64,000 nucleotides of DNA. It comes from Prevotella sp. Its GTDB lineage: Bacteria; Bacteroidota; Bacteroidia; Bacteroidales; Bacteroidaceae. Below, one piece after another: positions 5,366 through 61,950 of this stretch. Position 1 is the stretch's first letter, and each line of letters opens with the position of its first letter. The stretch covers positions 274,616 through 338,615 of the forward strand of contig JAGAON010000007.1 in NCBI GenBank assembly GCA_017623655.1. The letters run 5' to 3'. The position numbers and the translations under genes were made by a program. Under the pieces are notes generated by a model. The model saw only the letters and a list, made by a program, of their open reading frames with translations. It ran no database searches and had not been told where the DNA came from.

Positions 5366-8300
5366 CTACCGTACTTTCAGCACCTTTCTCACTTTATCGC
5401 CGACTTCGATATACACACCGGTGCCGTAAGGCTTGCTTACCCTTACGCCCCCCGCGTTATACATACCCGTTTTGCGGCGACGCTGATCCGCTTCCATGCT
5501 TCCGCCGATGACAAGGGAGAAGCGGGAAGGGGAATCTGAGGGACTGACAGATGTAGTATAGTCACCTGACAGCAGATTGGTAACCGTACCGGACGCCTTG
5601 TCCTTGATGCACACATTAGCGTAAGCGGCGTACACTGTCTTGTCGGTGAGGGAGAAGGTGTATGCGGATTCGCCCTTTACCGCTACCGTCAGCGGTATCT
5701 CTGTACCGACAGGAGCATGGGACAGGAGTGACAGACCTACGCCGTCTGTGCCGCATACGGAAATCTGCGGCAGCGTATCGTTGAGCGAAGCAAACTTCAC
5801 TCCGTCCACACCGAAGCGGTAATCCAGACCATTTGCCGCACGGCCGCTTCCCGTTTCATCCGCGGTTTCATCCCCGTAAGGGAGGATTATGACCTCATCC
5901 GTGCCATATCCTTCCGCAGACATTGCAAGTGCCGGCATTCTGTATGCCACTGTTCCGGAAGTGTTATCGGCATAATACAGTTTGGAGAAACGCAGGTTCT
6001 CTGTCTTCCCGTCACCTATCACGGCCGTCTGCGTGAAGAAGGCGTCACCCGGAGAGAGTGTGGCAGAAGCGGTTTCGTCCCACTTCCATGAGTACTTCGT
6101 TTCATACTTGCCCTCAACATTCATGGTATAGAGCACATGAGGCACGAACATTGTCTCCCTGCCGTCATCGCCTGTCACACCTGTATCATATCCGCTAATC
6201 AGGTAAGGCACACCTTTCAGGTTCCAGCCCATGTTGTATTCGGAGGTGAACCGGAAAGAAGAGCCGCCGGCGTCAACGTCACTTTGGTCATGCTGCACCA
6301 GCGTAACAATCTTGTCCGCGGCGCCTTCCTGATAAGGATAAAGGCTGGAGGCATTGCCGAAAGACGTGAAACGCAGCACTTCTCCACCTGTATTGTCTCC
6401 CCTGTCCAGCAGGATACCGTCATTGGCGGCTATGACGCCATCCACGGCGAATGTCTCGTCCACAGGCTTCCAGCAAGGGGAATTGTCAGCCTTGTACTCA
6501 TAATTCCATCCGCTTCGTTCCCTGCCGTCATACCAATATTTCCCATAACCGTCGCCCGCAACCTCTTCCGCCATTGAGATTACCTTACCGTCTTCCTCTG
6601 CGTATGTGGTGCAGGTGATATGGTTGTCATCATTCTTCATGTCGAAAGGCATCGCCACCATGGCGTAACGGCCGGCCACCTTACGCTCGGCGGCCACATA
6701 CTGCAAGCGTATCTCATTGCCCTGGCCGTAGAGTGAGCCTCCCTCCATCGCCAACAGGTAACCGGGTCTCAGCGGGTTCTCCGCCGTGAAGTAAGGTGAC
6801 CCGATACCGGGGGCAAGTTCACACACGAGATTTCCCTTGTCCTGCAAATAGACCACAGAGCCTTCATGCGGGTAATGGTTTCCGGCGTATGAGCCTTCCT
6901 TCCTGTTTGCGAACAATGTCTCCGGTGTCATCGCTGCGGAAGAAAGCGACTCATAAGAGCCTGTTGACCACGTCTCGTAACATCCGAGGTCTATCTTGTT
7001 GCCCAACACACGGGGATTGCCCAGCAGGTCGCGGTCAACGGTAAAGTCAACATATTCCCGCAATGCGGCGTTTGACAGGAGCTGCTTTCCGGTAACGTCG
7101 TCATTGTTACTGCCTGTTCCTATATACCGTGCCTTCTCATGCAGCTGATACCACAGGTTCCTGTTGTCGCTATCGGGTACGTCACCGGCATGATAAGCCA
7201 CATCCGACGGACGGAAATACGGGGCGAAAGGCTTTACTCTGTCACCGTCCCTATATACTATATTATTTATGGAGCGGCTGTTATCCGGAGACAACAGGCT
7301 TTCCCAACTGCCGGTTTCTCCCGCAAGGGTGCAGTTCAACATATATCCGTCTGCCCCAAGATTTACATCTGCCTTGCCGTTGTCACGCACAAGGACGTTA
7401 TACAACAGGCCGGAATGGTTCTCTATCAGTTTCGCGTCACCCGTCACCTTATTATTATTAATGACCGAATTGACGAGAGCCACGGTGCTGTTCTGTCCTA
7501 ACGACACCACCGGTTCCGTTGTTTCGGCAGGCTCATTGCCGTCTCCACTGCCTATTTCCAGTCCGTCAAAGAGGCAGAAGTCCACATTGTCACCCGCTTT
7601 CACGCTTCCCACAACGGTATGTTCGCTCATGGCCATGCCTTCGCGGTCGGCTTTCATCAGGGTCAGGTACGCGTCTATGTTTTCGTTGGAGTAGGTAACG
7701 TTGGTCTCGCCCTCTTTCACTTCACCATCCACCTGTTTGATATAGGTAGGGTCGATGCTTCCGTATAGCGACACGCCATTCCTCATTATCAGCGCCTCGT
7801 CTGTATGTTTGTTTTCCAGTCCCTTTACAAAGACGTATGCCCTTCTTTCCGCTTCCGTCCCGCCATCACTGACATCGTAATATACGGAAGCGGCATCGAT
7901 GGCCGTCTGTATCTGTCCCTTGCCGTATGCGTTCTCCCATGATATGCCATTGCCAAGGATTGCCTTCTTGGGATCTACATAGAGCACGCGGTTCAGAGCC
8001 ACGACACACTCGTAGGCTCCACGTTCCAGACCGCTGCCGTAGAAGCGTGTGATGTCCGCCAAGTCCTTGTCTTGTCTTACCCTTTCAATGTTTGAATCCG
8101 CCGTATATGGGTACTCTCCCGTCAGGTTCTTTACCAGCTTTACATAAATATCTACATCGCCCTTGCTCAAAATCTTTGAACTCGGATTGACATGAAAGTC
8201 ACGCGGACTGACGGTAACCGTCAGGTCAGCGGCGGAAGTCCCGTCGGGCACTTCCATCGGGGCAAAGAAGTTCGGGCCGTTGATAACGTCTGTGTTATTG

Positions 8301-11300
8301 GCGGAGAGCGGGACATTGTTATAGTGTTCCCTGTTGAGATAAGACATCGCGTTGGAAGTCATCACCGGCTTGTCTTCCGTATTTGCCGCAAGCCCCGTGA
8401 CATCCGGGTTGGTCTCACTGCTTACGCCGCCCTTCAAGGCATTGCGCCAGAGTATGGAGTTGTGCAGTTCCGACACGTCATCACCGGTATTGGTGAACAC
8501 TATCGGGCTGTCGTTCAGCGCGAATGTGCAGTTCACCACCTTGGTGTTGTCGGCTATGAGCGCGTTACCCTTGTTGCTGTGGAAAAGGGAGTTGCAGATA
8601 AGCGCATTGCCGCCACCCTTGCCGATGGTGACGGAAGGCATGGACTCTTCTTCCGGCGAGCCGTTGTTGAAGAAAGAGCACTGCGACATGACAAACTTGT
8701 AGAGTTCCTTACCGTCTGTTCCCGCCTCACCGCTTATGTCATCATAGGTATATTCAACTTTCGTATTATAATCCTGAGCCGTCTTCTTTACCGCATAAGT
8801 TTTTTTCTTGGCGTCTGTATCTTTGTAATACACGGCCACACCGCCACCACTCAAGTCGTCATTGGCTTTCGTGTTGGAGATATTTAGTCCCTTAAACACC
8901 ACGGGCACCACATACTCTTGCAGTTCACGCTTGTCGTCCTTGCCGGAAAGACGCTGTCTCATGTCCTCTATCACGAAGACATGACCACGGTTCAGGTTTC
9001 CGCCCATGCGTTCGGACGCATAAATATAGACAGGGTTATTCTCTATATTCTCACGCCCTTCCAGCTCATTGCTGTACCCGCCGCGTATGGTCAGGGACTT
9101 CACGCCCTGCATACCACGTTCCGTTTCTGTCTTTTCGTCAGGAGGCGTAATGCCTGTCTGCAAGTTGGTGGTTACCGTGAAAGCAAGATTACCGTTGATG
9201 GTATATACAGGCTGGTATCTGCCTGCAAGCATACGTATCTCCTTGTCGTGACCGTTGCGCGAAGCGAGAAGAGTCTCTATGGCACGCTGCAAGTCGCTTG
9301 TCGCTGTCGCCCATGTCTTGCCGTCAGATATATTTCCTCCCGTCCTTTCTTTTTCCGTCACCCAAAGTATATCGGTGTGTCCCTCGGTATTCGGAGAAAG
9401 TTTCACGTGCTGATACTCATACACGCCGATGTCAATGAATGTCTGGTTGTGGGTGGGGTTAGGGTCTGTTGACACACGCAGGAAGGGTTTTGCTTCCGCA
9501 TCACTGTATGACATATACAGGTCGTCACCTATCGGTATCGCTGTCCTTTCCTCACTCAACTTTCCATAGTCGTATGAGGCGCTGTGATAGATACCGGCAC
9601 CCACGACATTGCATTGGTTGGCTTCATCCTCATACACGAACTTGGGATCCTCACCGCTCAAGTCCTGTTGCAGGTAAGTCCAGCCGTTATCGACGAGATT
9701 GTTGATACGCCCTATCATCCAGTCGGCGGAAACATAGAATCCGGACTTGCCCGCCTTGGGGGACGGTGAGATAAAGTTAGGGCCGTCGATGGCGTCATTG
9801 TCACTGTTGATTATGATGTTGTTGGTTACAGGGTTAAGGCCGTCAACAACATCAGGATTTGAAGTGCCGCCATCTATAAGATGCACATTGTCATCAGCGA
9901 GTTTTGTGTACTGCCCCTTCCAAAGATAAGGGATGTAAGTGCCATTGCCTGTAAATCTGTCGTCAGGGTTGTTGTCCTCCGGTGTGAGGATATAGCCTTT
10001 ATAGTCCTGCAAACGATAGTCAATGTCATTAGATGAATAGACAGGCTCATTGCCTTTGCCTTCCTCATAAGCACAGAACCATAAAGCCTCCGGGGAATCA
10101 GACATAGTGCCGCCTGCATCTATTGTGCCGTCTGCATTGTACTTCTTAAAGTTTATAACCTTGTCCATATCCTCATTTACAGACTCGTTTCCCCAGAAGA
10201 TGGAGTTTATCACCTTATGAAGGTTGTCTGCCTTGAGCTGTTCCTCGTCTCCCTTCGTGGCGGCGGTGAATCCCTTGTTAGGCTGATAGCAGTATATGGC
10301 CGGGTAGCCGTACGCCTTGTTGCGCACGAAGTTACAGTTGACGGCATGCAGCTTTGAATGCTCGCCCATGAGCAATGCTCCGCCCACACCGGACATATCG
10401 CCGGTGTTACCATTCTCCACCTCCGCCTCATTATTGGCAAAGAGACTGTTCACGATGATGGTTTCATAAGTGGCGTTGACGGCACCTCCGCGTCCTGCGT
10501 ATGATATTGTCACGTCATTGTCACCGTCCCTGAACGTGTCAGAGCCCACTTGCGCATAGTTCTGCGCGAAGTTGCAGGCAAAGACCTTCAACGCGCCATC
10601 GGTAAAGATTGCGCCGCCACGTCCGCCACTGTTATTCATGAAAGAACAGTTACGCACTTCCAGCGGTATGTTCCTGTAACCTACCGGACGCGCATCGAGT
10701 CCGCCTTCATTCACGAAACCATCATTAGTCCAGTTGCCCTCAACACATATCGCACCGCCTTTGTAATACGTATATTTACTGTTGACGGCACCTTCCACAT
10801 ACTTCAAGGCCATTCCGTCTTCAAGGTTTATGCCGTCAATGACAATCGGCACGCCCCTGTATTTCGGCATACGTCCTGTTCCCGCGCCATCTATTGTATA
10901 TGTATAAGTAGGGTCAGGCATACCACCTACACAACTTTCATCCGCAATACACGCCATCACGTGATACACGTTGTAGGAAGAGGTAGAGTTGATAACCTGT
11001 CCGGACAGTATGGTCTGAATCTCCATCTCCCATGGTTCGGCTATGTTGTTGTGATTGATGTCATGCAGCTTACGTCTTTTGATTATACTCTCTATATTCG
11101 CATGATCGATGACAACGGACATTCCGCTTTCCGCATCGGTAAACGTCGTAGTTGCAGTATTCTCCGCTATGCCCCCGACCGCAGGGACATTACCGTAATA
11201 CTTGCCGTCGTTCTCAACACTCACGCCACCCACAAGGGTCACTCCTTCCGGGACGAGGAAGGTACATCCGCGGCTGTTGATGTACTCTCCCTTGATGTTA

Positions 11301-14300
11301 CGCCTCGGATAGAATGTACCGCCGCCGAGCACAATCTCAAACGGTATGTTCTTGTTTATATATTCGCCCTTTTCATTTTTCTTCTTACGCGCACTCCTCA
11401 CATACTCAAGAGCGTCGCCCAGATAACGCATGGGGTATGCGAACGATGAACCCTCCTGACTGTAATAAGTGTTGTCGGTCTGGTTACGCATGACGTTCAC
11501 GGCGTCCATCGACACCTCATATTCATTCTTGGCGACAAAGATACGGGTCATCAGGTTGTTCTCGTCAATCTCCGGCAATACACGTCCCGGATATGCACGT
11601 GCACCTATATCGATGAACTCGTTATCATATCCTGTTCTATCTACTCCCGCAAGGTCCACCTTCAATAAGTCTTTGTTATTCTTGAGCAGGTTATTGTATT
11701 CGGAATATTCCATGCCGCTGCGCACAATAAGACTGTACTTCTCCAGCTTATAGAACTCATGGTCATTGTGCATCACCTTCACCGGCGTTCCGTCCGAAGC
11801 GATATAGTCATGGTTGTAACTCTCGTCATCAAAGCGCACGCCCTTGTTCATGTCCGTATTGACGGCGATATTGTTGATGCCCGGCTCGCGTGTAGTTTCC
11901 GTTGCGCAGAAAGAGACGGGATAGTCATTGATGCCGAGTTCCCTGTCACCGGCATCGGTAGGCATGGTCTCTCCCGCCACATTAGCCAACTCGCCGCTTG
12001 CGTTCTGCCAGAAGAGGGAACTGTTGGCACGCAGGTTGGTATAGAAATAGATGCCTCCACCGGCACGGCTTGCCGTATTGTAGATAACGTCCGACGTATA
12101 GATACGGGCATAGTTACCCGTTGCCTCCTCCGGTTCTTCCACATACACGCCGCCGCCATCGCCACCGGTGACGGCGTTATACTGTATGATTGAGCCGCTG
12201 ACAAGAGCGCCGGGCTTCAGGTATAGGCCGCCACCCATATCCGCCGCCGTGTTGTTCTGCACTATGCAGTTGCGGATATGCGCATAGCCTGTCACGATTG
12301 CCGCCCCGCCCACACGCGTCTCAGCCAGTTCTCCCGTACTCATCCGCTCACCGTCAGCCATTCCGTTCTCTATAAAAATACCGTCAAGCACCGCACGCTC
12401 CTGTATATTCGCAAGAGCATCTTCCACCAGTAATTCGCCATCGGCATCATACGTGTTGTCGGTGAACGTCACCACATTATACGCCTGCACATCCACATCG
12501 TCCTGCCGGAATATCCCGCTGAATGACGTGCGGTATTCAAGTATGTCCCTCGTCTTGAAATCCTCGCTGTAACCTCCCCACACTTCCACGCCATGCGGCA
12601 CTATGAGCGAGTACGTTCTCGGATTCTCCTCTTCGCCGGGCGATGTCACCGTGTTGGAACGTCTCGGACGATAAGTGAAGCCCTCATAACCGTTTACAGT
12701 ATTCCCGGCTACCGTCCTATCCTTCTTCGAGTCACCCGCCAGCTTTATCACTACCGTCCTCCTGCCGGCATCATCCTTATGTGCATAGACATACCGTCCT
12801 GCCGCGTCAAGAATCTTCTGCAACTTCCGCCAGCAGGCCGCATTCTCCGGAGAATCGGCGGAGGCGTTACCCGTACCGTGAGGAATGACATAGTAGAAAG
12901 CATATCCGTCAGTCTTCGTGTCAGGCATTATGTCCTTGGCACCGTTATACTCGTATGCACCAATATCCACGATACAGTCCTTCACACGGTCGGTATAGTC
13001 CATGTCGAAATCGGGCAATACTGCTCCTTCCATTTCTTCTCGACCGGCATTAACACAGACATTATTGCCCAAACGGTAATCATTCTTTGCGTTGGCCTCA
13101 GTCAACGACAATGCAAAAGGATGATAACTGTCCGCACTATAATCCTTGCCCAAATATAGAATATTACCATTTGCTGCCGTGTATGCGTTGGCTTCATTGT
13201 TAGAAGTTTCATAACTCGTACCCTGAAGATAACAGTTATAGAAGTTCACCTGTGTATCCCATCCCTGCTTTTTCAGAGGAGCAGAACTCCCACCTATTAC
13301 AATGGTATTGTAAACCGTCAAGCTTGCACTTGCACCGGATGCAGTCCATACATGTATAGCCGCGCCACCGGTATTATTCACTATTGTATTATTATAGAAT
13401 TTCGCAAATTCAAGGAACGCGCCGCATCCATAAGGGAAAGTAGTGCCGCTGTTGTCATTCTGTGAGATAACCGAATTATATATATGTCCGTCAATGGCAT
13501 AGATACCGGCTCCATACATCTCATATCCGTCGGTCATGTCATTATTGTAAATATAGCAGTTCTCTATTGTACCGCCATCACAATAGACACCTCCGCCTCT
13601 TCCTGTACCATAGCCTGCCATTTTGTTGTCCCTGACAACGCAGTTACTCAATGTTACATTCTCAAACAGGTTCACGCCCGCTCCGCCATTGCGTCCTCCT
13701 TTCACGCCTATTCTTCCATGCCTTATCGTAAAGCCGTCCCACCTTACGTTATCATATATTATATGGTCTCTCGGAACATCACTTCCGTCACCTTCGGTCG
13801 TCCGGCAGTCATCTTCTTTATGTGTCAATACCCTTGCGCCATCATCTGACGGTATCGAAGCCGCAGTCTGAAGAATTGTCTCATAATCGGAAACTTCATA
13901 ATTATCTCCTTCCTGTTGGGCTATACCATCTGTCAACAAAGGATGCCTTTCATTCATTCCCGGATTGCCCGTTGCAGGGAACGAGCCATATACGGAAACA
14001 TTGTTTTTCATCGTATATCCGCTGCTCCTCGTGTATGTTCCTGCCGCAACCCAAACCTGCACCAATGGTTTGGTCGTTTTGCTACGGGTAATCTTCACAT
14101 CCTTTGTCTTTCTTTTAGAGTTATCACTCCAATCCGTATATTCCCGTGACTCTTCTGTAACGGTTGTCTGCACGTATGACGCGTCTCCCATCATCGTCTG
14201 GTATGCCGCATCCACCGCATCCTGAACATCTCCCATTGCCTTAGCCCAGGAAGAACCGTCTCCTGTTCCTCCTTGCCTGACATAAACCACACGTCCGAAC

Positions 14301-17278
14301 GCCGGCTGGTACGTGTTCTCCAATGCGCCGATGTCGGCTGCGCCACCGTAGTCGCGTGTGGTGTTGCCGGTCAGGTCATACCCTTTCATGCCGTCGTCCG
14401 TCGCCGCGTTGACCATAGGGTTGGTGTTCGTGGGCATCCAGTCCGGGTCGCTGCCATACACGGTGACGTCACCGTCCATGTTCACGCCGATGTTGCTTGT
14501 GGCGTTTACGAAGTTCGGGTTCTCGTTGGTATATGTCGAATGGTATCTCAATATAGGGTCGGCAACATCGGTGAAGTCCGTCAGGCCTATATCCATCATG
14601 TTGTTGTTGCCCGTCAGCGTGCCGCCGTTCAATACGTTGAATGTACGCACACGCCCGTCGGCCTTGTCCGCCGTGGCGGTCAGGTCAGCCACTTTCAGGT
14701 TTGCATCCGCAGGCGCACTGTCAAAACCGATGTTCGCATGCAGCGCGGTATTCGTCATTGTTATCCCTGCATTGTTCATTGCCTGCACAGCATATCCCAC
14801 GTTTCCCCGGACAAGGCAGTGGTTGAGCTCCAGCCGCGTGTTCTCGCCCGACGCCGCCACGATGGCTGAATCGGCGGCAAGCACGGCGTTGTTATGGAAG
14901 ATGCAGTTCTCCACTTTCAGTTCCATCGTCCTGCCGGAATAGTTGCCCATATACAGCGCCGCACCCTGCGGGGCGGTACAGTTGGCCACGATGCAGTTGC
15001 GTATTATGTTGCCCGTCATGGCGGGAGTGGGTTTTCCCGTGCTCGGATAGGTCGGGGCATTCAGCACCGCTATTCCCGCCCCGCTCCTGAATCCCAACTC
15101 TTTCAACACCTCATTGGGCTGTGTGTTGGCGAAATACAGCTGGAATCCATCCACCACGGCGTGGCTCGTGCCATGTCCTATGACTATGATATGCGTACCG
15201 TTGTCCTTGTAGCTTCCGCCGGTTATGTTGGCGGTGATGCGTGTGGGATGGTTCTTCGGGTCGCGCCGTGATATGTCCGTGCCGGTGAGCGATTCGGGGA
15301 ATCCGCCGTAGAGGTGCACATTACTGGGTACTGTGATGGTTGATGCGCGGAGGTGTGACAGGTCTGCGTTGCCTGCCGTGGTGGTTGTTCCCTCCTTCAC
15401 CACTATCTGTATCGGCGAGTCCGGTGACGGTGCATCCGCCAGCCCGTTGACGTAGTACAGGGCATCGTTGATGTTGTAGAAGGGTGTTTCCCATGATGAG
15501 CCTACCTTTGTCTCGTCGGACGTGTCCAAGGACTTGCTTTTTTCCACCTTCGGATCCACGAAGACGGTGCGTACGGTCTTGCCGCTGTTCTCAAGGTCAG
15601 GCAGTTCCGCGGCGTTTGTGCCTTGTATGGGATAGGGCACCAGTGCACCTATTACACAGCGTGGGGCGAAAGCGTCGCCGCCGTAGTCGCAGCTTATGCG
15701 TCCATGATATATGTTGCCGTTGTCCGGGTAGTTGTCTATCTGTACCCCCTTGTGTCGCAGGTATGAGAAGAATCGCGGTGTCCAGTCAGACTTATCGTAT
15801 TCATAATCCATATTGTCATTCCCGTCTGACGCTATTACTCCTGCCGTGGAGGTGGGTTTCACGAACTCGGGATAAAATGAAGCCACAGCCGTGTTGGTGT
15901 TGTCATCGCTCAGGTAATATACGCCGTTGGTCTTCTTTATGGTTCCGCCCCAGTCTGAGTAGTTGCCGTGCGACAGCGCCACGTATGCTAAGGTGGTCTT
16001 GGTGGTGGCGGCGGATTCACGGTATGTGGCATACTGCACATTGTTGTTTGCCGCCACCTCGTTGCCCCAGATGACGCTGTTGACAACTAACGCTCCGCCG
16101 TCAACGTACAGTCCTCCGCTCCGTGCATAGCGGCGGTTGTTATATACCACGTTCACGCCCACGCACTTGTTTCTTGCTATCGTCACGTGGTTGAGCATAC
16201 CGCCGTTGCGCATATACACGCCTCCCGCCTCGGCGGTGGAGGTATTGTTGTTTATCACGGTGCCCACCACTGCCGTGGCGTAACGCCGCTTGTCGTCCTC
16301 CGGCACTTTGGAGTACAGCAGCGCCAGTCCTCCTCCGCCGCGGGCCACGTTGTTCTCTATGACGCAGTTGCGCACCATGCCGCCGTCATCCATGGCCACA
16401 CCGCCGCCGTAGCCGTCTGTCACGCCCACGCCGGCCGACTGGTTGCGGATGACGTAACACTGCTCCAGCAGTCCGCCGCCGTCCATATACACACCTCCTC
16501 CGCGCAGGGTCGAGGCGTTCTGGGTGATGAAGCAGTTGCGCACCTCGCTGCCGGCCACCATATAGACTCCTCCGCCGTAGCTGTTGTGGTAGGCGTGGCT
16601 GCCGTCGTTGGCGGCGGGTGTGATGCGGTTGGAGGATTGTCCGTCGCGTATGGTGAATCCGTCCAGTACGGCGGTCTCGCCGAGAGCCTTGGCGCGGTTG
16701 GTGGCATCGTCAAAGCCCGCGCTGGCGAACCACACCACATGATATGAGTTGCCGGTGAACGTCTCGGTGTACTGGTTTTTGCCGGAGTCCCATGTGAGGG
16801 GATTGCCGGTGGTGGAGGTGTGGTTGCCGCTCAGTATGGTCTCGTGTTTCAGCAACCATGTCTCGCCTTTTGCCGTGCCGACGGTGGAGCCGTTTGTCAA
16901 CACCCTGTCCCCGGGCTTGTCCTCGGGGGTGTCGGGGTTGAAGCCTCCATAGACGCTGATGCCGTCATACAGTATGAACGAGGTGTAGAGTGTACCGTCG
17001 CCGCCGGGTGTGGCGGTGGTGGGGGTGTATCTGCCGGCGGACACATAGACGTGTCCCTTGGTCAGGTTGTTCTCGTCCATATATTTCCTCAGGTCCTCTA
17101 TGGCATCCTGCAAGTTGTTCTTGGCCGTTGCCCACGACCTGCCGTCGTTGGTGTAGTTGCCTTTGGACTTGCTGACATAGCGCACGGGCACCTCTGCCGG
17201 TGTCTGCGCGGATGAAGTGACGGCAAAGAACAGCATTGCCATTATGATGTGTAAGCCCTGAAAGGGCAATAAGCGCAT
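5366..17278 (-). CDS. giant secreted seven-module beta-helix surface protein (choice-of-anchor Q type), about 3,970 aa
   Basis: A single uninterrupted frame. Seven repeated modules each open with a line like YVRQGGTGDGSSWAKA..DVQDAVDA, at about 17190, 15570, 14290, 12920, 11550, 9390 and 7990. They proceed through beta-helix rungs rich in GGGVY, GGAI and NC.(I/F)..N motifs, and close with DIGAYE-like signatures (DIGALE, DIGAYEY, DIGARAY, DIGVYEY, RGAYE, DLGCYE). After about 6960 a different C-terminal region ends in GMYNAGGVRVSKPYGTGVYI and a basic tail resembling the ends of other secreted Bacteroidales proteins. The frame is open back to 17446, but the extra residues translate REP palindromes and overlap the Y1 transposase. 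ATG 17278 gives a signal peptide (MRLLPFQGLHIIMAMLFFAV) and is preferred; ATG 17242 is possible. Location next to fimbrial genes suggests an adhesin, but function is unproven. Confidence 0.88.
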   Translation of the reverse strand: MRLLPFQGLHIIMAMLFFAVTSSAQTPAEVPVRYVSKSKGNYTNDGRSWATAKNNLQDAIEDLRKYMDENNLTKGHVYVSAGRYTPTTATPGGDGTLYTSFILYDGISVYGGFNPDTPEDKPGDRVLTNGSTVGTAKGETWLLKHETILSGNHTSTTGNPLTWDSGKNQYTETFTGNSYHVVWFASAGFDDATNRAKALGETAVLDGFTIRDGQSSNRITPAANDGSHAYHNSYGGGVYMVAGSEVRNCFITQNASTLRGGGVYMDGGGLLEQCYVIRNQSAGVGVTDGYGGGVAMDDGGMVRNCVIENNVARGGGGLALLYSKVPEDDKRRYATAVVGTVINNNTSTAEAGGVYMRNGGMLNHVTIARNKCVGVNVVYNNRRYARSGGLYVDGGALVVNSVIWGNEVAANNNVQYATYRESAATTKTTLAYVALSHGNYSDWGGTIKKTNGVYYLSDDNTNTAVASFYPEFVKPTSTAGVIASDGNDNMDYEYDKSDWTPRFFSYLRHKGVQIDNYPDNGNIYHGRISCDYGGDAFAPRCVIGALVPYPIQGTNAAELPDLENSGKTVRTVFVDPKVEKSKSLDTSDETKVGSSWETPFYNINDALYYVNGLADAPSPDSPIQIVVKEGTTTTAGNADLSHLRASTITVPSNVHLYGGFPESLTGTDISRRDPKNHPTRITANITGGSYKDNGTHIIVIGHGTSHAVVDGFQLYFANTQPNEVLKELGFRSGAGIAVLNAPTYPSTGKPTPAMTGNIIRNCIVANCTAPQGAALYMGNYSGRTMELKVENCIFHNNAVLAADSAIVAASGENTRLELNHCLVRGNVGYAVQAMNNAGITMTNTALHANIGFDSAPADANLKVADLTATADKADGRVRTFNVLNGGTLTGNNNMMDIGLTDFTDVADPILRYHSTYTNENPNFVNATSNIGVNMDGDVTVYGSDPDWMPTNTNPMVNAATDDGMKGYDLTGNTTRDYGGAADIGALENTYQPAFGRVVYVRQGGTGDGSSWAKAMGDVQDAVDAAYQTMMGDASYVQTTVTEESREYTDWSDNSKRKTKDVKITRSKTTKPLVQVWVAAGTYTRSSGYTMKNNVSVYGSFPATGNPGMNERHPLLTDGIAQQEGDNYEVSDYETILQTAASIPSDDGARVLTHKEDDCRTTEGDGSDVPRDHIIYDNVRWDGFTIRHGRIGVKGGRNGGAGVNLFENVTLSNCVVRDNKMAGYGTGRGGGVYCDGGTIENCYIYNNDMTDGYEMYGAGIYAIDGHIYNSVISQNDNSGTTFPYGCGAFLEFAKFYNNTIVNNTGGAAIHVWTASGASASLTVYNTIVIGGSSAPLKKQGWDTQVNFYNCYLQGTSYETSNNEANAYTAANGNILYLGKDYSADSYHPFALSLTEANAKNDYRLGNNVCVNAGREEMEGAVLPDFDMDYTDRVKDCIVDIGAYEYNGAKDIMPDTKTDGYAFYYVIPHGTGNASADSPENAACWRKLQKILDAAGRYVYAHKDDAGRRTVVIKLAGDSKKDRTVAGNTVNGYEGFTYRPRRSNTVTSPGEEENPRTYSLIVPHGVEVWGGYSEDFKTRDILEYRTSFSGIFRQDDVDVQAYNVVTFTDNTYDADGELLVEDALANIQERAVLDGIFIENGMADGERMSTGELAETRVGGAAIVTGYAHIRNCIVQNNTAADMGGGLYLKPGALVSGSIIQYNAVTGGDGGGVYVEEPEEATGNYARIYTSDVIYNTASRAGGGIYFYTNLRANSSLFWQNASGELANVAGETMPTDAGDRELGINDYPVSFCATETTREPGINNIAVNTDMNKGVRFDDESYNHDYIASDGTPVKVMHNDHEFYKLEKYSLIVRSGMEYSEYNNLLKNNKDLLKVDLAGVDRTGYDNEFIDIGARAYPGRVLPEIDENNLMTRIFVAKNEYEVSMDAVNVMRNQTDNTYYSQEGSSFAYPMRYLGDALEYVRSARKKKNEKGEYINKNIPFEIVLGGGTFYPRRNIKGEYINSRGCTFLVPEGVTLVGGVSVENDGKYYGNVPAVGGIAENTATTTFTDAESGMSVVIDHANIESIIKRRKLHDINHNNIAEPWEMEIQTILSGQVINSTSSYNVYHVMACIADESCVGGMPDPTYTYTIDGAGTGRMPKYRGVPIVIDGINLEDGMALKYVEGAVNSKYTYYKGGAICVEGNWTNDGFVNEGGLDARPVGYRNIPLEVRNCSFMNNSGGRGGAIFTDGALKVFACNFAQNYAQVGSDTFRDGDNDVTISYAGRGGAVNATYETIIVNSLFANNEAEVENGNTGDMSGVGGALLMGEHSKLHAVNCNFVRNKAYGYPAIYCYQPNKGFTAATKGDEEQLKADNLHKVINSIFWGNESVNEDMDKVINFKKYNADGTIDAGGTMSDSPEALWFCAYEEGKGNEPVYSSNDIDYRLQDYKGYILTPEDNNPDDRFTGNGTYIPYLWKGQYTKLADDNVHLIDGGTSNPDVVDGLNPVTNNIIINSDNDAIDGPNFISPSPKAGKSGFYVSADWMIGRINNLVDNGWTYLQQDLSGEDPKFVYEDEANQCNVVGAGIYHSASYDYGKLSEERTAIPIGDDLYMSYSDAEAKPFLRVSTDPNPTHNQTFIDIGVYEYQHVKLSPNTEGHTDILWVTEKERTGGNISDGKTWATATSDLQRAIETLLASRNGHDKEIRMLAGRYQPVYTINGNLAFTVTTNLQTGITPPDEKTETERGMQGVKSLTIRGGYSNELEGRENIENNPVYIYASERMGGNLNRGHVFVIEDMRQRLSGKDDKRELQEYVVPVVFKGLNISNTKANDDLSGGGVAVYYKDTDAKKKTYAVKKTAQDYNTKVEYTYDDISGEAGTDGKELYKFVMSQCSFFNNGSPEEESMPSVTIGKGGGNALICNSLFHSNKGNALIADNTKVVNCTFALNDSPIVFTNTGDDVSELHNSILWRNALKGGVSSETNPDVTGLAANTEDKPVMTSNAMSYLNREHYNNVPLSANNTDVINGPNFFAPMEVPDGTSAADLTVTVSPRDFHVNPSSKILSKGDVDIYVKLVKNLTGEYPYTADSNIERVRQDKDLADITRFYGSGLERGAYECVVALNRVLYVDPKKAILGNGISWENAYGKGQIQTAIDAASVYYDVSDGGTEAERRAYVFVKGLENKHTDEALIMRNGVSLYGSIDPTYIKQVDGEVKEGETNVTYSNENIDAYLTLMKADREGMAMSEHTVVGSVKAGDNVDFCLFDGLEIGSGDGNEPAETTEPVVSLGQNSTVALVNSVINNNKVTGDAKLIENHSGLLYNVLVRDNGKADVNLGADGYMLNCTLAGETGSWESLLSPDNSRSINNIVYRDGDRVKPFAPYFRPSDVAYHAGDVPDSDNRNLWYQLHEKARYIGTGSNNDDVTGKQLLSNAALREYVDFTVDRDLLGNPRVLGNKIDLGCYETWSTGSYESLSSAAMTPETLFANRKEGSYAGNHYPHEGSVVYLQDKGNLVCELAPGIGSPYFTAENPLRPGYLLAMEGGSLYGQGNEIRLQYVAAERKVAGRYAMVAMPFDMKNDDNHITCTTYAEEDGKVISMAEEVAGDGYGKYWYDGRERSGWNYEYKADNSPCWKPVDETFAVDGVIAANDGILLDRGDNTGGEVLRFTSFGNASSLYPYQEGAADKIVTLVQHDQSDVDAGGSSFRFTSEYNMGWNLKGVPYLISGYDTGVTGDDGRETMFVPHVLYTMNVEGKYETKYSWKWDETASATLSPGDAFFTQTAVIGDGKTENLRFSKLYYADNTSGTVAYRMPALAMSAEGYGTDEVIILPYGDETADETGSGRAANGLDYRFGVDGVKFASLNDTLPQISVCGTDGVGLSLLSHAPVGTEIPLTVAVKGESAYTFSLTDKTVYAAYANVCIKDKASGTVTNLLSGDYTTSVSPSDSPSRFSLVIGGSMEADQRRRKTGMYNAGGVRVSKPYGTGVYIEVGDKVRKVLKVR
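17249..17278. repeat. CCCTGAAAGGGC palindrome inside the start of the giant gene
   Basis: The palindrome TTGCCCTTTCAGGGC, read on the minus strand, encodes LLPFQG right after the preferred start codon. A further copy at 17321 lies just upstream. The element has therefore become part of, or displaced, the original N-terminus. Confidence 0.8.
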
Positions 17279-17320
17279 GACATGACTTACGGAAAGTGAT
17301 CTTATGCCGTTGATGCTTAC

Positions 17321-17994
17321 GCCCTGAAAGGGCAATGGGCACTTAGCCCGGGGCAACACCCCGGGGATAATACGCCGATATGGCAATCGCCCTGAAAGGG
17401 CAAAAGCGTTAATCAACAAACACATATTTCTCATCATATTCAACATCGTATAATTTCAAGAAGTCGATATATTCGTCTCTGAATGTGCGCTTCTCATGAT
17501 GCGCACGCTGATTCTTTATGTATTGTAATGTTTTGTCAACCACCGACCGGCTTACGGAGAATGCGCCGTAACCGCTCTGCCACTCAAATGTCCGGTAACA
17601 TGGGGCAATGTTTTTTATCCATCTGCTGCTATTGCGTTTCACCTCCTCCACCACATGGGACAAACTCTCGTTCTTTGAGAGCAGGAACAGTATGTGGACA
17701 TGATTGCCTATGCCGCCTACCTGTATCACATGACTTCCGGTCGTGTTTACCAGTTGGCCTATATATGAGTGCACACGTTCCAATTCCCCGTCACGGATTT
17801 CCGGACTTGTTGTTTTTATGTGGAATATCAGATGAATGTATATTTTACTTAATGACTGTGACATTTGTTTCTTTGTTCTCCGGGGTGTTGCCCCGGACTG
17901 TACGCTTTTGCCCTTTCAGGGCGATTAGTAATTTATCGCATTTCGTTTTCCCGGGGTGTTACCCCGGGCTAAGTGCCCATTGCCCTTTCAGGGC
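17321..17994. mobile_element. Y1 transposase gene bracketed by inverted REP palindromes (RAYT-like unit)
   Basis: Left arm 17321-17364 (GCCCTGAAAGGGCAATGGGC, then CTTAGCCCGGGGCAACACC) is the reverse complement of right arm 17950-17994 with one C/T difference. Inside these, a second pair CGCCCTGAAAGGGCAAAAGCG (about 17389-17409) and its inverse (about 17902-17922) closely embrace the transposase gene. Each arm itself consists of two hairpins. This is not a standard IS200 end structure; it matches the layout of REP-associated tyrosine transposases, where the gene is flanked by the palindromes it acts on. Confidence 0.8.
17409..17864 (-). CDS. tnpA: IS200/IS605-like Y1 (HUH) transposase, probable RAYT
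   Basis: 151 aa, the usual length of TnpA Y1 transposases. It starts MSQSLSKIYIHLIFHIKTTS, carries the HUH metal-binding motif in GNHVHILFLLSKN, continues with VVEEVKRNSSRWIKN and SGYGAFSVSRS, and has the catalytic tyrosine in YIKNQRAHHEKRTFRDEY. These enzymes cut and join single-stranded DNA at hairpins via a 5'-phosphotyrosine. No accessory TnpB is present. The gene looks intact. It is closely flanked by inverted copies of the CCCTGAAAGGGC / CCCGGGGTGTTACCCCGGG palindromes that are dispersed through the window. This supports a domesticated REP-processing role rather than a self-mobile IS, though the latter cannot be excluded. Confidence 0.93.
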   Translation of the reverse strand: MSQSLSKIYIHLIFHIKTTSPEIRDGELERVHSYIGQLVNTTGSHVIQVGGIGNHVHILFLLSKNESLSHVVEEVKRNSSRWIKNIAPCYRTFEWQSGYGAFSVSRSVVDKTLQYIKNQRAHHEKRTFRDEYIDFLKLYDVEYDEKYVFVD

Positions 17995-18012
17995 GAAGAC
18001 GTTTGTTGCATC

Positions 18013-18300
18013 AACGGACGGGTGAAACCGTTGCATTGCGAATCCATTGCGTTATCAACGGATGGGTGAAACCGTTGCATTGCGAATCCATTGCGTTATC
18101 AACGGACGGGTGAAACCGTTACATTGCGAATCCATTGCGTTATCAACGGACGGGTGAAACCGTTACATTGCGAATCCATTGCGTTATCAACGGATGGGTG
18201 AAACCGTTGCATTGCGAATCCATTGCGTTATCAACGGACGGGTGAAACCGTTACATTGCGAATCCATTGCGTTATCGGCGGACGGGTGAAACCGTTGCAC
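18013..18300. repeat. 44-bp tandem repeat, 6.5 copies
   Basis: Exact 44-bp period starting at 18013, 18057, 18101, 18145, 18189 and 18233, with a partial seventh copy from 18277. Each unit contains an inverted repeat AACGGACGGGTGAAACCGTT followed by two ATTGCG words. Copies differ only at two positions (GAC/GAT and GTTGC/GTTAC), so the array is recent or homogenised. No spacers, so not CRISPR. It lies directly after the RAYT right arm. Confidence 0.95.
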
Positions 18301-18310
18301 CGATGGCGGG

Positions 18311-18396
18311 CTGAAAGCCCAACCTGCTCTTAGCCCGGGGCAACACCCCGGGAAACAAGATGCCATTTGTTTGATGCCGCCCTGAAAGGGCAAAAG
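18311..18396. repeat. third copy of the RAYT-type REP module
   Basis: Holds CTTAGCCCGGGGCAACACC and CGCCCTGAAAGGGCAAAAGCG, the same two hairpins found around the transposase, separated by a short AT-rich spacer. GGGCTGAAAGCCC directly before is another small palindrome. Confidence 0.8.
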
Positions 18397-19935: not shown

Positions 19936-20047
19936 CGTTCTTTTTATGGAATTATCGGAAGTTAACGGGAGTTATGCTGAGTTATCGTCTTCATCGCGGC
20001 GTTTGTCGCTTTGCGGCGATTGCACGGCAGGGATGCCGTGCCTGCTC

Positions 20048-25660: not shown

Positions 25661-25820
25661 TTGTAGAGACGATGTAGTACATCGTCTCAGCACCGGTATA
25701 TGGTAACCATCGGAAAGGCAAACGGCATTGAGACGATGAGGTTCATCGTCTCTACAAATTTCGCCCATGTATCATTCTGTCAGATTATCTACAACAACAC
25801 AAAAGCCCTGAAAGGGCGCA
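25661..25820. repeat. paired GAGACGATG element and CCCTGAAAGGGC palindrome
   Basis: Composite at 25661-25757 with the same GCACCGGTATAT spacer seen elsewhere, then GCCCTGAAAGGGC at about 25805-25818, just before the end of miaB. Confidence 0.85.
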
Positions 25821-30008: not shown

Positions 30009-30032
30009 AATCACAGAATTTGCATAGAAAAA

Positions 30033-30345
30033 GCCCTGAAAGGGCGGAATAACACAGCACAGGGTGTAAACCCTGTGAATTGATTGCGTATGGAGAAAAA
30101 GGTATTGGCACCCCGAAGCCGGCAGGCGAGGAGCACTATGTGCGACGAGGGGTGAAGCGTCCGCATTCCGTTCACGACAATCCTTACCGTTTGCAGGGCA
30201 TTTACTGCTATCCGTTTTTGTTTTCACCCCTCGCTGCCCTGCGGGCATCTCGCCTGCCGGCTTCGGGGTGCCAATGGCATTTTATGGTCGCAATGTGTTA
30301 CACAGGGTTTACACCCTGTGCTGTGTTATTCCGCCCTTTCAGGGC
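30033..30345. repeat. 313-bp foldback element, copy 1
   Basis: The first 45 bases (GCCCTGAAAGGGCGGAATAA, CACAGCACAGGGTG, TAAACCCTGTG) are repeated exactly in inverse at the right end. A second identical block, CACCCCGAAGCCGGCAGGC followed by GAG, and GCGAGGGGTGAA form inner arms around a central core of about 60 bp containing CATTCCGTTCACGA. Within each arm, GCCCTGAAAGGGC and CACAGGGTGTAAACCCTGTG are hairpins themselves. No coding potential. Confidence 0.9.
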
Positions 30346-30380
30346 TGTGCTTTTACGCTCTATTAACTAACGTATTACAA

Positions 30381-30582
30381 ACGGGTGCTGATTACCTTGC
30401 GAAAGAGGCCTGATTACACTGCAATCAGCACCTGTTTACAGGGTAATCAGCACCCTTTTGCAAATCCACCGGTTATGACTTATGCGCCGTTATTGTAGAG
30501 ACGATGTACCACATCGTCTCCGCAACCGCACCGCGTTACATTATTTACTGATACGATGTGGTACATCGTCTCTACAATAACG
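30381..30582. repeat. GTGCTGATTAC array plus GAGACGATG pair
   Basis: 30381-30459: half-units in both directions (GGGTGCTGATTACC, CCTGATTACACTGCAATCAG, GGTAATCAGCACCC). 30492-30519 and 30553-30582: two GAGACGATGTACCACATCG-type hairpins in inverse orientation. No gene in this gap. Confidence 0.8.
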
Positions 30583-32190: not shown

Positions 32191-32290
32191 AATTTGTAGA
32201 GACGATGAGCCTCATCGTCTCAATGCCGTTTGCCTTTCCGGTGATTACCATATTCTGGTGCTGAGACGATGTGATACATCGTCTCTACAA
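32191..32290. repeat. paired GAGACGATG element
   Basis: TTTGTAGAGACGATGAGCCT hairpin, spacer of about 40 bp with TTTGCCTTTCCGGTGATTAC, then GAGACGATGTGATACATCG and TCTCTACAA. Inverted arrangement relative to the copy at 1783. Confidence 0.85.
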
Positions 32291-32339
32291 GCGGGTGCGA
32301 TGTCTTGAAACGAACATGTACCAATTATAAAGCAAGAAA

Positions 32340-32652
32340 GCCCTGAAAGGGCGACAGAACACAGCACAGGGTGTTAACCCTGTGAATTGATTGCGTATGA
32401 AGAAAAAGGTATCGGCACCCCGAAGCCGGCAGGCGAGGAGCACGGAGTGCGACGAGGGGTGATACATCCGCATTCCGTTCACGATGATTCTTGCCGCTTG
32501 CCGCACATTTACCGTTATTCGTTTTTGTTTTCACCCCTCGTCGCACTCCGTGCTCCTCGCCTACCGGCTTCGGGGTTCTAATAGTATTGTAGGGTCGCAA
32601 CGTGTTACACAGGGCTTACACCCTGTGCTGTATTATTCCGCCCTTTCAGGGC
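32340..32652. repeat. 313-bp foldback element, copy 2
   Basis: Same length and order as the element at 30033: GCCCTGAAAGGGCGACAGAA, CACAGGGTGTTAACCCTGTG, ATTGATTGCGTATG, CACCCCGAAGCCGGCAGGCG, CGACGAGGGGTGA, a core with CATTCCGTTCACGATGATTC, then the inverted arm. The core is shared with copy 1, so the two are recent relatives 2.3 kb apart, flanking the esterase gene. Confidence 0.9.
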
Positions 32653-32698
32653 TTTTGATTTGTTGTGAATTGCATATAAAACCGATACATGCGCGAAA

Positions 32699-32890
32699 TT
32701 TGTAGAGACGATGAACCTCATCGTCTCAATACCATTTGCCTTTCCGGCGATTACCATATTCTGGTGCTGAGACGATGTGGTACATCGTCTCTACAAGCGG
32801 GTGCAGGGGCTAAAAACAAACAGGTGCTGATTACAGTGTAATCAGCACCTAATCACACTGCAATCAGCACCTGTTTGCAAGGTAATCAGC
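32699..32890. repeat. paired GAGACGATG element and GTGCTGATTAC hairpins
   Basis: 32699-32797 is a close copy of the element at 32191. 32817-32890: CAGGTGCTGATTACAGTGTA paired with ATCAGCACCT, then two inverted half-units. It lies between the convergent esterase and xerD genes and may terminate both. Confidence 0.8.
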
Positions 32891-34680: not shown

Positions 34681-34991
34681 AACCCTGAAAGGGTGACAGA
34701 ACTCAGCCCGGGGTGCAAACCCCGGGTAAAAGCGGGCATTCGGCAAAACGTATTGGAACCCCGCAGCCGGCAGGCGAGGAGTGCGAAGCATGACGAGGGG
34801 TATAAAGTAAGGCAGAAGAAGAACCTTTTAAGACGTTCCGATACGCATTGCAAGCCGCAGGAACAGCATCCACCCCTCGGTGGCCAATAGCCACCTCGCC
34901 TACCGGCTGCGGGGTTCCAATACCATCTCCGGCCTCCATTCTTTACCCGGGGTTTGCACCCCGGGCTGAGTTCTGTCACCCTTTCAGGGTT
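34681..34991. repeat. 311-bp foldback element, copy 3 (sequence-divergent, structure conserved)
   Basis: Ends AACCCTGAAAGGGTGACAGA and its inverse. The second hairpin is CCCGGGGTGCAAACCCCGGG instead of CACAGGGTGTAAACCCTGTG, and the third block is AACCCCGCAGCCGGCAGGCG. The arms are still complementary over the full outer 50 bases. The core differs from copies 1 and 2. Paired changes relative to those copies preserve the hairpins. Confidence 0.88.
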
Positions 34992-41974: not shown

Positions 41975-42290
41975 CAAAAGGGTGCCGATTACCTTGTGAA
42001 CAGGTGCTGATTACACTGCAATCAGGCCTCTTTTACACCGTAATCGGCACCCTTTTACAACACTATCCATATCTATTTGATAATCAATCTATAACATTTA
42101 GCGTATCGATTCGTGTCTTGTTGCGTGCGGAACGACCCGAGGAGGCTTATCGGCATCGAACCCCGAAGGGGTGACAGAGCACAGCACAGGGTGTAAACCC
42201 TGTGTAACGACAGGCAACCGCAAAAGGTGTCGGGAACCCCAAAGCCGGCAGGCGAGGCGGACACAGGCCGCCGAGGGGTGCCACATCACC
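41975..42290. repeat. GTGCTGATTAC array and one arm of the foldback family
   Basis: 41975-42059: AAAAGGGTGCCGATTAC at the left is mirrored by GTAATCGGCACCCTTTT at the right, with two inner half-units; probable terminator after the PAP2-like gene. 42158-42290: a single arm of the 313-bp element family (ACCCCGAAGGGGTGACAG, CACAGGGTGTAAACCCTGTG, AACCCCAAAGCCGGCAGGCG, CCGAGGGGTG). The first hairpin has changed to CCCCGAAGGGG with pairing kept. Confidence 0.8.
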
Positions 42291-52140: not shown

Positions 52141-52200
52141 TAAGCCCTGAAAGGGCGGCATAATACAGGATAGGGTGTAAGCCCTATCAACACAGGCAGT
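52141..52200. repeat. short CCCTGAAAGGGC family fragment
   Basis: GCCCTGAAAGGGCGGCATAA followed by ATAGGGTGTAAGCCCTAT, a hairpin equivalent to CACAGGGTGTAAACCCTGTG with different paired bases. No third block is present. Confidence 0.75.
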
Positions 52201-61062: not shown

Positions 61063-61270
61063 TGTAGAGACGATGTACCACATCGTCTCAGTAACGCACG
61101 GAAGAAAGCAGGCACGGCATCCTTACAGCAACAGTCGTTTCCATGTTCCGTCGCACTTTTCATCGGTTGTCTGCCCGTAACTTCGGACGCACCAAGGTAC
61201 GTCCCTACACCATACGTTTGTTACGCTCTTGGTGCATGATGCCTTGTAGGGACGCACCTTGGTGCGTCCG
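61063..61270. repeat. GAGACGATG hairpin and GGACGCACC pair
   Basis: 61063-61090: TAGAGACGATGTACCACATC with GTCTCA. 61183-61207 and 61245-61270: inverted pair GGACGCACCAAGGTACGTCC and GGACGCACCTTGGTGCGTCC with the spacer CATACGTTTGTTACGCTCTT. The spacer is nearly the same as that at 2160-2190 (CATCCGTTTGTAACGCTATT), so the pair moves as a unit. Confidence 0.8.
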
Positions 61271-61404
61271 ATTTCGTTTGCTTACTCATCCGGAAATACG
61301 GCAGTTTGCAGTCATTGGGGCGTGATTATGTTGCATAACCGATGGTGATTGCTGTTTGTTTCAGCAGAATGTCGTACCTACCATTACGCTACAAAACAAA
61401 CAGG

Positions 61405-61950
61405 TGCAGATTACGCCGCCAAACAGCCCTGAAAGGGCGACACAACACAGTCCCTTTTGTTTTGGGACACCGCGCACGCTTGTAGAGACTATGTACTACA
61501 TCGTCTCAGCACCGGTATATGGTAATCGCCGGAAAGGCAAACGGTATTGAGACGATGAGGTTCATCGTCTCTACAAATTCCATCCATATATCGGTTTTAT
61601 ATGCCATTCACAACAACGCAAAAAGCCCTGAAAGGACGACACAACACGGCACCCTTTTGTTTTGGGACACCGCGCACGCTTGTAGAGACGATGTACCACA
61701 TCGTCTCAGCACCGGTATATAGTAATCAACGGAAAGCCAGACGGCATTGAGACGATGAGGTTCATCGTCTCTACAAATTTCGCCCATATATCGGTTTTAT
61801 ATGCAATTCACAACAACGCAAAAGCCCTGAAAGGGCGACATAACACAGCACAGGGTGTAAGCCCTGTGTATTGGCATATTGCGCGACAAGACGTATCGGC
61901 ACCCCAAAGCCGGCAGGCGAGGAGCACGCAGTGCGACGAGGGGTGAAACA
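61405..61950. repeat. cluster: CCCTGAAAGGGC palindromes, two paired GAGACGATG units, one foldback arm
   Basis: Palindromes at about 61428-61441 and 61625-61638 (the latter with a mismatch). Paired GAGACGATG units at 61478-61576 and 61678-61777 with the GCACCGGTATAT spacer. 61826-61947: a single arm of the 313-bp family (GCCCTGAAAGGGCGACATAA, CACAGGGTGTAAGCCCTGTG, CACCCCAAAGCCGGCAGGCG, CGACGAGGGGTGAAA). No real gene in 60997-62020. Confidence 0.85.

Follow-up and report, generated by a model that had tools for sequence, protein, structure and literature searches.

The window, i.e. the whole stretch of 64 kb of DNA analysed here, harbours a gene for a short Y1 transposase enclosed by inverted hairpins, and palindromes of similar appearance recur far away from this gene. 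This raises the question whether gene and palindromes form one mobile system and, if so, of which type. The original prediction had proposed a REP/RAYT system, in a version of the Bacteroidales tied to 313-bp foldbacks.

The Y1 gene and its hairpin arms

The gene product contains a Y1_Tnp domain (PF01797, E 8.6e-21), and this is the only PF01797 match in the 60%-complete MAG to which the window belongs (G000; 1.93 Mb, 9 contigs). In an alignment of 18 members the residues H55, H57, Y115, Q119, H122 and H123 are invariant. The profile of this alignment found 8 distinct solved sequences, all of them named transposases (best 2xm3, 2e-18), and matched the ISHp608 transposase at 8.5e-15.

According to Quentin et al. 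2018 (PMC6006769), TnpA-Y1 subclass 1.2 is characterised by Y---Q--HH, a WQ motif and a median length of 148 aa and is found mostly in Cyanobacteria and Bacteroidetes, class-2 TnpA-REP by Y---NP. Judged by its motifs and its length (Table 1), the putative window enzyme bears the signature of subclass 1.2, with which it shares Y---Q--HH, WQ, a size of about 150 aa and the occurrence in Bacteroidetes. Y---Q--HH, in a pattern admitting N for Q, was present in 157 of 160 distinct related genes; for this set, 194 profile matches were reduced to 170 distinct proteins, of which 8 weak and 2 short ones were excluded. The HUH motif reads NHVH in the window protein and DHVH, DHIH, DHLH, NHVH or NHIH among its relatives, the published pattern of the subclass being DH[IV]H.

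Identity with a class-2 RAYT was rejected, as the Y motif is YIKNQ and not Y---NP and the foot of the hairpins is not GT[AG]G. What is supported of the predicted REP/RAYT system is a Y1 transposase with REP-like palindromes, judged from co-occurrence by genome and from flanking in several phyla (see below). The REP-associated model NF047646 was matched by 11 of the 18 alignment members and not by the window protein. An ordinary, recent IS200 copy, which the original prediction had named as the finding that would speak against it, was rejected because of the family score (44.7 bits with the NCBIfam IS200 model NF033573, below the cut-off of 55), the Y motif (YIKNQRAHH, not Y[IV]ENQ) and the copy number (a single copy found in the 60%-complete MAG).

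The inverted double-hairpin arms with one base difference and the inner inverted pair, both described originally, were found again. The arms (17320-17365 and 17950-17995) are 46 nt long, 98% complementary with one mismatch and 584 nt apart; the inner pair (17385-17409 and 17902-17926) comprises 25 nt with 100% complementarity. In each arm a linker joins the short hairpin (GCCCTGAAAGGGC) to the long one (Table 1).

Two further features lie next to the arms. A tandem array of seven 44-bp units (18010-18317) separates the right arm of the gene from the third arm copy. An open frame of 4026 aa (5366-17446, minus strand) has its first residues within the left arm region; translation probably begins more internally, close to the signal-like sequence MLFFAVTSSAQ.

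Table 1. Features of the Y1 locus and of the dispersed double hairpins in the window.
Feature	Position	Strand	Details
Extra outer short-hairpin copy	17255..17267	+	
Left arm	17321..17365	+	On the REP-polarity strand: short hairpin 17321-17333 with GAA loop, linker, foot TTAG 17343-17346, long hairpin 17347-17365
Inner short hairpin	17389..17401	+	Adjoins the stop codon
tnpA-Y1 gene	17409..17864	-	151 aa; HUH (NHVH), WQ, YIKNQRAHH
Inner long and short hairpins	17879..17922	-	Long 17879-17897, short 17910-17922; directly upstream of the start codon
Right arm (mirror image)	17950..17994	-	Long hairpin 17950-17968, foot 17969-17972, linker, short hairpin 17982-17994
Third arm copy	18311..18352	+	84-86% like the other two arms; past the 44-bp tandem array; RF01687 18.6 bits (match 18307-18352), below cut-off
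Foldback	30032..30346		Two RF01687 double hairpins, inverted, outward, 54.9 bits each; no foldback in sister genome G612
Foldback	32339..32653		RF01687 50.7 and 51.3 bits; left half only in G612
Foldback	34681..34991		RF01687 49.1 bits each; absent from G612
Half-element double hairpin	42159..42204	+ (Rfam strand minus)	RF01687 49.2 bits; plus is the REP-polarity strand
Single double hairpin	52143..52188	+ (Rfam strand minus)	RF01687 43.1 bits
Half-element double hairpin	61823..61868	+ (Rfam strand minus)	RF01687 52.0 bits; short hairpins at 61426 (exact) and 61626 (variant)

Dispersed copies in the window and its genome

The sequence GCCCTGAAAGGGC or its complement occurs in 15 exact copies within the window. 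A genome-wide count, as called for originally, gave 36 exact copies in the MAG and 0 for the reversed control, and chance palindromes were rejected on this basis. The repeat is not a new one: it is already catalogued as the 'RNA' Acido-Lenti-1 (RF01687; PMC2864571). An Rfam scan of the window at gathering threshold (37 bits for this family) yielded nine RF01687 matches of 43.1-54.9 bits, six of them the paired arms of three foldbacks and the other three solitary copies (42.2, 52.1 and 61.8 kb). In Rfam orientation, the two arms of every foldback are on opposite strands, minus for the left one and plus for the right one. The whole MAG contains at least 37 RF01687 matches.

The claim that the palindromes of the gene recur through the window was confirmed, with one correction concerning the long hairpin. 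Foldbacks of about 310 bp are present at 30, 32.3 and 34.7 kb, single or half copies at 42.16, 52.14 and 61.4-61.9 kb and a degraded copy at 63.7 kb, with a lone palindrome at 25.8 kb. Gene arms and dispersed copies have a common architecture and an identical short hairpin; the long hairpin is of the same build but of different sequence (CCCGGGG... in the gene arms vs CACAGGG... for the foldbacks at 30 and 32 kb), and the gene's own arms gave no RF01687 match at E up to 10. In REPINs, two inverted REP units form one miniature element. The foldbacks likewise consist of two inverted units, but they are about 310 bp long (the pairs of genome G154 mostly about 170-205 bp) and each of their arms is a double hairpin.

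Two other short repeats were noticed in the window. A second palindromic family comprises GAGACGATG (20 copies) and CATCGTCTC (22 copies), with about 0.24 copies of each expected in 64 kb; it is found e.g. at 1789-2345, 25666-25744, 30498-30564, 32199-32783, 61067-61763 and 63613, and several copies adjoin double hairpins. The third repeat, GGTGCTGATTAC, is present in 8 copies and in 4 copies of its complement (1686-1745, 18506, 25564, 30384-30443, 32823-32838, 39344, 42003 and 48434), several of them close to double hairpins.

The proposed comparison of empty sites succeeded to a limited extent. In the sister genome G612, a 50%-complete MAG whose five longest matching pieces are 81-89% identical at the nucleotide level, two of the three foldbacks are absent and the third is present by half (Table 1); the intergenic flanks are too diverged for insertion junctions to be placed to the base. 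The G612 spacer at the 30-kb site contains GGGCGGAATAAC, which also occurs in the window element where its short hairpin and linker meet, indicating that a decayed remnant rather than a virgin site may be present there. Copies with flanks were compared from G000 (20), G321 (19) and G154 (20). In G000 conservation breaks off close to the short hairpin, one or two bases past it; in many copies of G321 and G154 it extends further. In a similar pair of Acidobacteriota genomes (G323 and G365, contig C1), RF01687 clusters lie at seemingly corresponding places with unequal copy numbers and without clean insertions, which suggests local array growth besides dispersal.

Flanking and co-occurrence in other genomes

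A profile search of genome contigs yielded 582 loci, the best 80 of which were used. These are mostly from Bacteroidota; Acidobacteria, Verrucomicrobia, Planctomycetota and Ignavibacteria are also among their phylum labels. At these and further collected loci we counted RF01687 matches (E up to 1) pointing outward within 250 bp of the gene. Such matches flanked 5 of 17 loci of the window's family (both sides 4, at or over the cut-off 2; 17 of 28 Y1 loci, with the window's own locus counted as one without a match), 6 of 14 named loci (both sides 3, at or over the cut-off 2; 14 of the best 80), 9 of 20 loci in Acidobacteriota (both sides 4, at or over the cut-off 7; 20 of 30) and 12 of 20 in Verrucomicrobiota (both sides 5, at or over the cut-off 4; 20 of 30). 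In total, 32 of 71 loci were flanked, 16 on both sides; 15 of the 32 had at least one match at or over the cut-off, and at the other 17 all flanking matches were under it. The single Planctomycetota locus (L124) carries matches on both sides of 35.1 and 35.6 bits, just under 37. Twelve control loci, mainly Y1 genes of a different type, gave no RF01687 match; one of these controls (L053) is also part of the 160-gene set. The arrangement is not specific to the Bacteroidales as had been assumed. As the double hairpin frames the genes of one little-studied Y1 group in several phyla, the most plausible view is that of a mobile DNA repeat tied to this enzyme and not of an RNA.

A descriptor independent of Rfam (long hairpin, linker of 8-15 nt and short hairpin within 250 bp of the gene) detected an outward unit upstream of 82/160 genes, downstream of 81/156, on both sides of 51/156 and on either side of 108/156. 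Dinucleotide-shuffled flanks gave 0.6% and 1.1% per side. Inward-pointing double hairpins were found beside the gene as well (38/160 upstream, 41/156 downstream), which we attribute to short hairpins sitting on both sides of one long hairpin. Outward units at the 80 named loci reached about 3.1 per kb within 150 bp of the gene; beyond 600 bp, units of either orientation were at 0.03-0.14 per kb. In a tree of the 160 genes, calculated from few columns, the 112 flanked genes were clustered without forming one clade. Quentin et al. 2018 (PMC6006769) give REP as "no" for subclass 1.2 and describe it as generally lacking the typical terminal IS200 structures. The double-hairpin ends of 108 of 156 genes set our loci apart from this description, as do the relatives with such ends in records of Acidobacteria, Verrucomicrobia, Planctomycetota and Ignavibacteria.

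Gene and repeat also occur together when counted by genome (all p values from Fisher tests ignoring kinship). Among 199 Acidobacteriota genomes, where matches with E of 1e-20 or lower counted as the gene, 38 had both, 6 the gene only, 12 RF01687 only and 143 neither (p 5e-24), corresponding to RF01687 in 38/44 gene-bearing and 12/155 other genomes. For 194 Verrucomicrobiota genomes the numbers were 32, 6, 11 and 145 (p 2.6e-21; 32/38 vs 11/156); here the gene was cut at E 1e-23 instead of 1e-20, which excludes G470 (8.5e-22), and its inclusion would give 7 genomes with the gene only and 144 with neither. In 151 genomes of the window's family we counted 9, 13, 8 and 121 (p 7e-5), after three genomes (G024, G080 and G149) whose genes are not subclass 1.2 by motif had been moved to the gene-negative group (otherwise 9, 16, 8 and 118, p 2e-4). 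Of the 50 gene-bearing genomes from the best 80 of 582 loci, 34 contained RF01687, 24 of them over the cut-off. No RF01687 was detected in 14 control genomes. Genomes with only weaker Y1 matches contained it in 3 of 19 and 3 of 20 cases in two surveys, and it was not found in G440 (17 weaker matches) or G470 (13 weaker matches, best 8.5e-22).

The exceptions concern both directions. Gene-bearing genomes without RF01687 numbered 6 in Acidobacteriota, 6 in Verrucomicrobiota and 13 in the family. In the same-genus genomes sampled, the repeat was not equally abundant in relatives lacking the gene, the outcome that would have spoken against the original prediction: none of 8 such genomes without the gene had RF01687, and the gene-bearing same-genus genome G108 had none either. 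All these absences are soft, because many of the genomes are MAGs, the search filters were strict and the number of candidates scored was capped. Conversely, RF01687 was present without a detected subclass-1.2 gene in the 12 of 155 and 11 of 156 gene-negative genomes already mentioned and in 8 of 129 of the family. Of the 17 RF01687-positive family genomes, 12 contain a Y1 domain of some sort; none was detected in the other 5. G340 carries 30 RF01687 matches and G356 carries 15, in the latter with hits on a multi-megabase contig (C1), and no subclass-1.2 gene was detected in either. Such genomes may hold relics, be incomplete or have another driver; G340 and G356 are candidate relic populations.

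Based on the architecture, the outward flanking in several phyla, the co-occurrence with the gene and the presence or absence at two sites of the sister species, we consider it highly probable that TnpA-Y1 subclass-1.2 transposases run a REP-like system in which the RF01687 double hairpin serves, as DNA, as the end that is recognised. An ordinary insertion sequence of the IS200/IS605 family with MITE-like deletion derivatives, i.e. not a REP-type system, would be the next explanation, and we regard it as unlikely. It would account for the matches of the alignment profile to solved IS200/IS605-type transposases, for the kind of end common to gene and miniatures, and for the many genes of this kind in several genomes, e.g. 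16 matches in G274. Against it stand the low IS200 score and the deviating Y motif of the window protein, the ratio of repeats to gene of at least 37:1 in G000 and the ends themselves, which are inverted double hairpins. Furthermore, among the matches listed, multi-copy subclass-1.2 genes within one genome differ in E-value, unlike five weak-match genes of G287, whose E-value is identical. Old intergenic repeats with a function of their own, next to which a Y1 gene happened to land, are very unlikely: roles as terminators, supercoiling or nucleoid sites have been proposed for REPs elsewhere (PMC3733652) and gene-less copies exist, but neither the outward flanking in several phyla nor the co-occurrence by genome fits.

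Strand, foot and a possible mechanism

The collected loci and the window were subjected to a geometry-only scan in which CT after the long hairpin was imposed. It yielded 517 distinct elements; reversed sequences gave 108, so that about a fifth of the elements may be chance. The matches at 20022, 47965 and 59095 of the window are probably of this kind. On the Rfam-annotated strand the non-Watson-Crick stem pairs were A.C in 142, G.T in 55 and other in 181 cases (reversed control 33, 32 and 106), and A.C exceeded G.T in 78 loci, the reverse being true in 23. An RNA on this strand should favour G.U, and the complement is thus favoured overall. By group, the ratio of A.C to G.T was 59:7 for the named loci, 14:4 for the own genome, 19:5 for family and genus, 23:9 for Verrucomicrobiota and 3:1 for G154. 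Acidobacteriota showed no such bias (24 vs 29).

Read on the complement strand, the element has the order 5'-short hairpin, linker, NNAG, long hairpin-3', which is REP polarity. The most frequent feet of the 517 elements, with the final AG imposed by the scan, were TTAG (112), ATAG (107), ACAG (62), TCAG (47) and GTAG (28); the trinucleotide adjoining the long hairpin was TAG in 259, CAG in 157, AAG in 57 and GAG in 44, AG again being imposed. When the CT rule was omitted, 164 arms had C in 76% and T in 75% after the long hairpin. With DNA parameters, 433 elements folded better on the complement and 71 folded worse; with RNA parameters the numbers were 336 and 169.

The short-hairpin loop is GNA in 330 of the 517 elements, and the Rfam register of five pairs and a three-base loop fits a triloop better. 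UNCG loops are stable in RNA, and the complement of GNA is UNC on the annotated strand and thus near to them, which makes the triloop a supportive argument only. GNA triloops form very stable DNA minihairpins (PMC6479982). Wobble pairs (outside Acidobacteriota), foot and hairpin stability point to the strand opposite to the Rfam annotation.

Acido-Lenti-1 was rated a probable RNA by Weinberg et al. 2010 (PMC2864571), and Rfam keeps RF01687 as sRNA. A genuine small RNA or regulatory RNA hairpin, carried by or hitch-hiking with transposons, would be in agreement with this, with the fact that the hairpins fold as RNA too, with the copies in genomes without a detected gene and with the missing strand bias in Acidobacteriota. 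We consider it quite improbable, as the copies are arranged in inverted, outward-facing pairs, both in foldbacks and on the two sides of the gene, A.C exceeds G.U overall on the annotated strand and the complement folds better even under RNA parameters. Our results rather favour a DNA element, mainly on the other strand. Acido-Lenti-1 would then be no RNA family but the ssDNA substrate of a hitherto overlooked, phylum-spanning REP-like transposition system. The end of this element would comprise two hairpins, the short one frequently closed by a GNA triloop and the long one preceded by a foot ending in AG; it would work mainly on the strand opposite to Rfam and would have been spread by subclass-1.2 enzymes. 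We believe this wider reading to be probably correct.

TnpA-REP cleaves at CT, and its GTAG foot helps to choose the site (PMC8266576). The REPtrons of class-2 RAYT/TnpA-REP in E. coli and Stenotrophomonas (PMC8266576) resemble our system in the inverted hairpins which frame the Y1 gene and recur genome-wide, and in the tetranucleotide ending in AG directly 5' of the hairpin. They differ in the Y motif (Y---NP, here Y---Q--HH), in the foot (GT(A/G)G, here mostly N(T/C)AG) and in the unit, a REP being one hairpin and the unit here two with a linker of usually 12 nt. On our reading, the window contains one such unit, with the gene between inverted arms and the single arms and arm-to-arm foldbacks as non-autonomous copies. 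By analogy with TnpA-REP (PMC8266576), the enzyme may attach to the arm in its folded, single-stranded form, CT cleavage sites may be selected through the AG of the foot, and arm-bounded segments might then be joined or moved, whereby copies would spread.

A further comparison is offered by the TIRYT/TIRtrons (Di Nocera et al. 2013, PMC3733652). These tyrosine transposases carry inverted repeats at their termini; some of them are from Acidobacteria, and some are accompanied by repeat families. They share these traits with our system, but have other end sequences and belong mostly to subclass 2.1, to which 20 of 26 TIRYT proteins were assigned (PMC6006769). No link between Acido-Lenti-1 and a Y1 transposase was found in the available text of the Acido-Lenti-1/RF01687 literature (PMC2864571, PMC13298647, PMC10059132) or of the REP/RAYT literature (PMC6006769, PMC8266576, PMC3733652, PMC12306157); preprints were outside this search, subscription papers were few and an earlier publication is possible.

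If our interpretation is correct, a probable structured RNA of 2010 gains a concrete identity and a Y1 subclass its missing substrate, and REP-type biology with a new two-hairpin end would exist in Bacteroidota, Acidobacteriota and Verrucomicrobiota. It also predicts the strand and the dinucleotide cut by the enzyme. Annotation pipelines would have to drop ncRNA gene calls for RF01687 repeats, which have been annotated e.g. in Vibrio anguillarum (PMC10059132). Acido-Lenti-1, little understood as of 2026, was suggested as a possible regulator near Tannerella protease genes (PMC13298647); these copies may be remnants of mobile repeats.

A different RNA family was encountered at one of the collected loci (L042). 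Here, a match to the 6S-like Bacteroidales-1 RNA (2001-2171, 119.9 bits) was found about 1 kb away from the subclass-1.2 gene (613-1053), and the hairpins beside this gene differ from RF01687.
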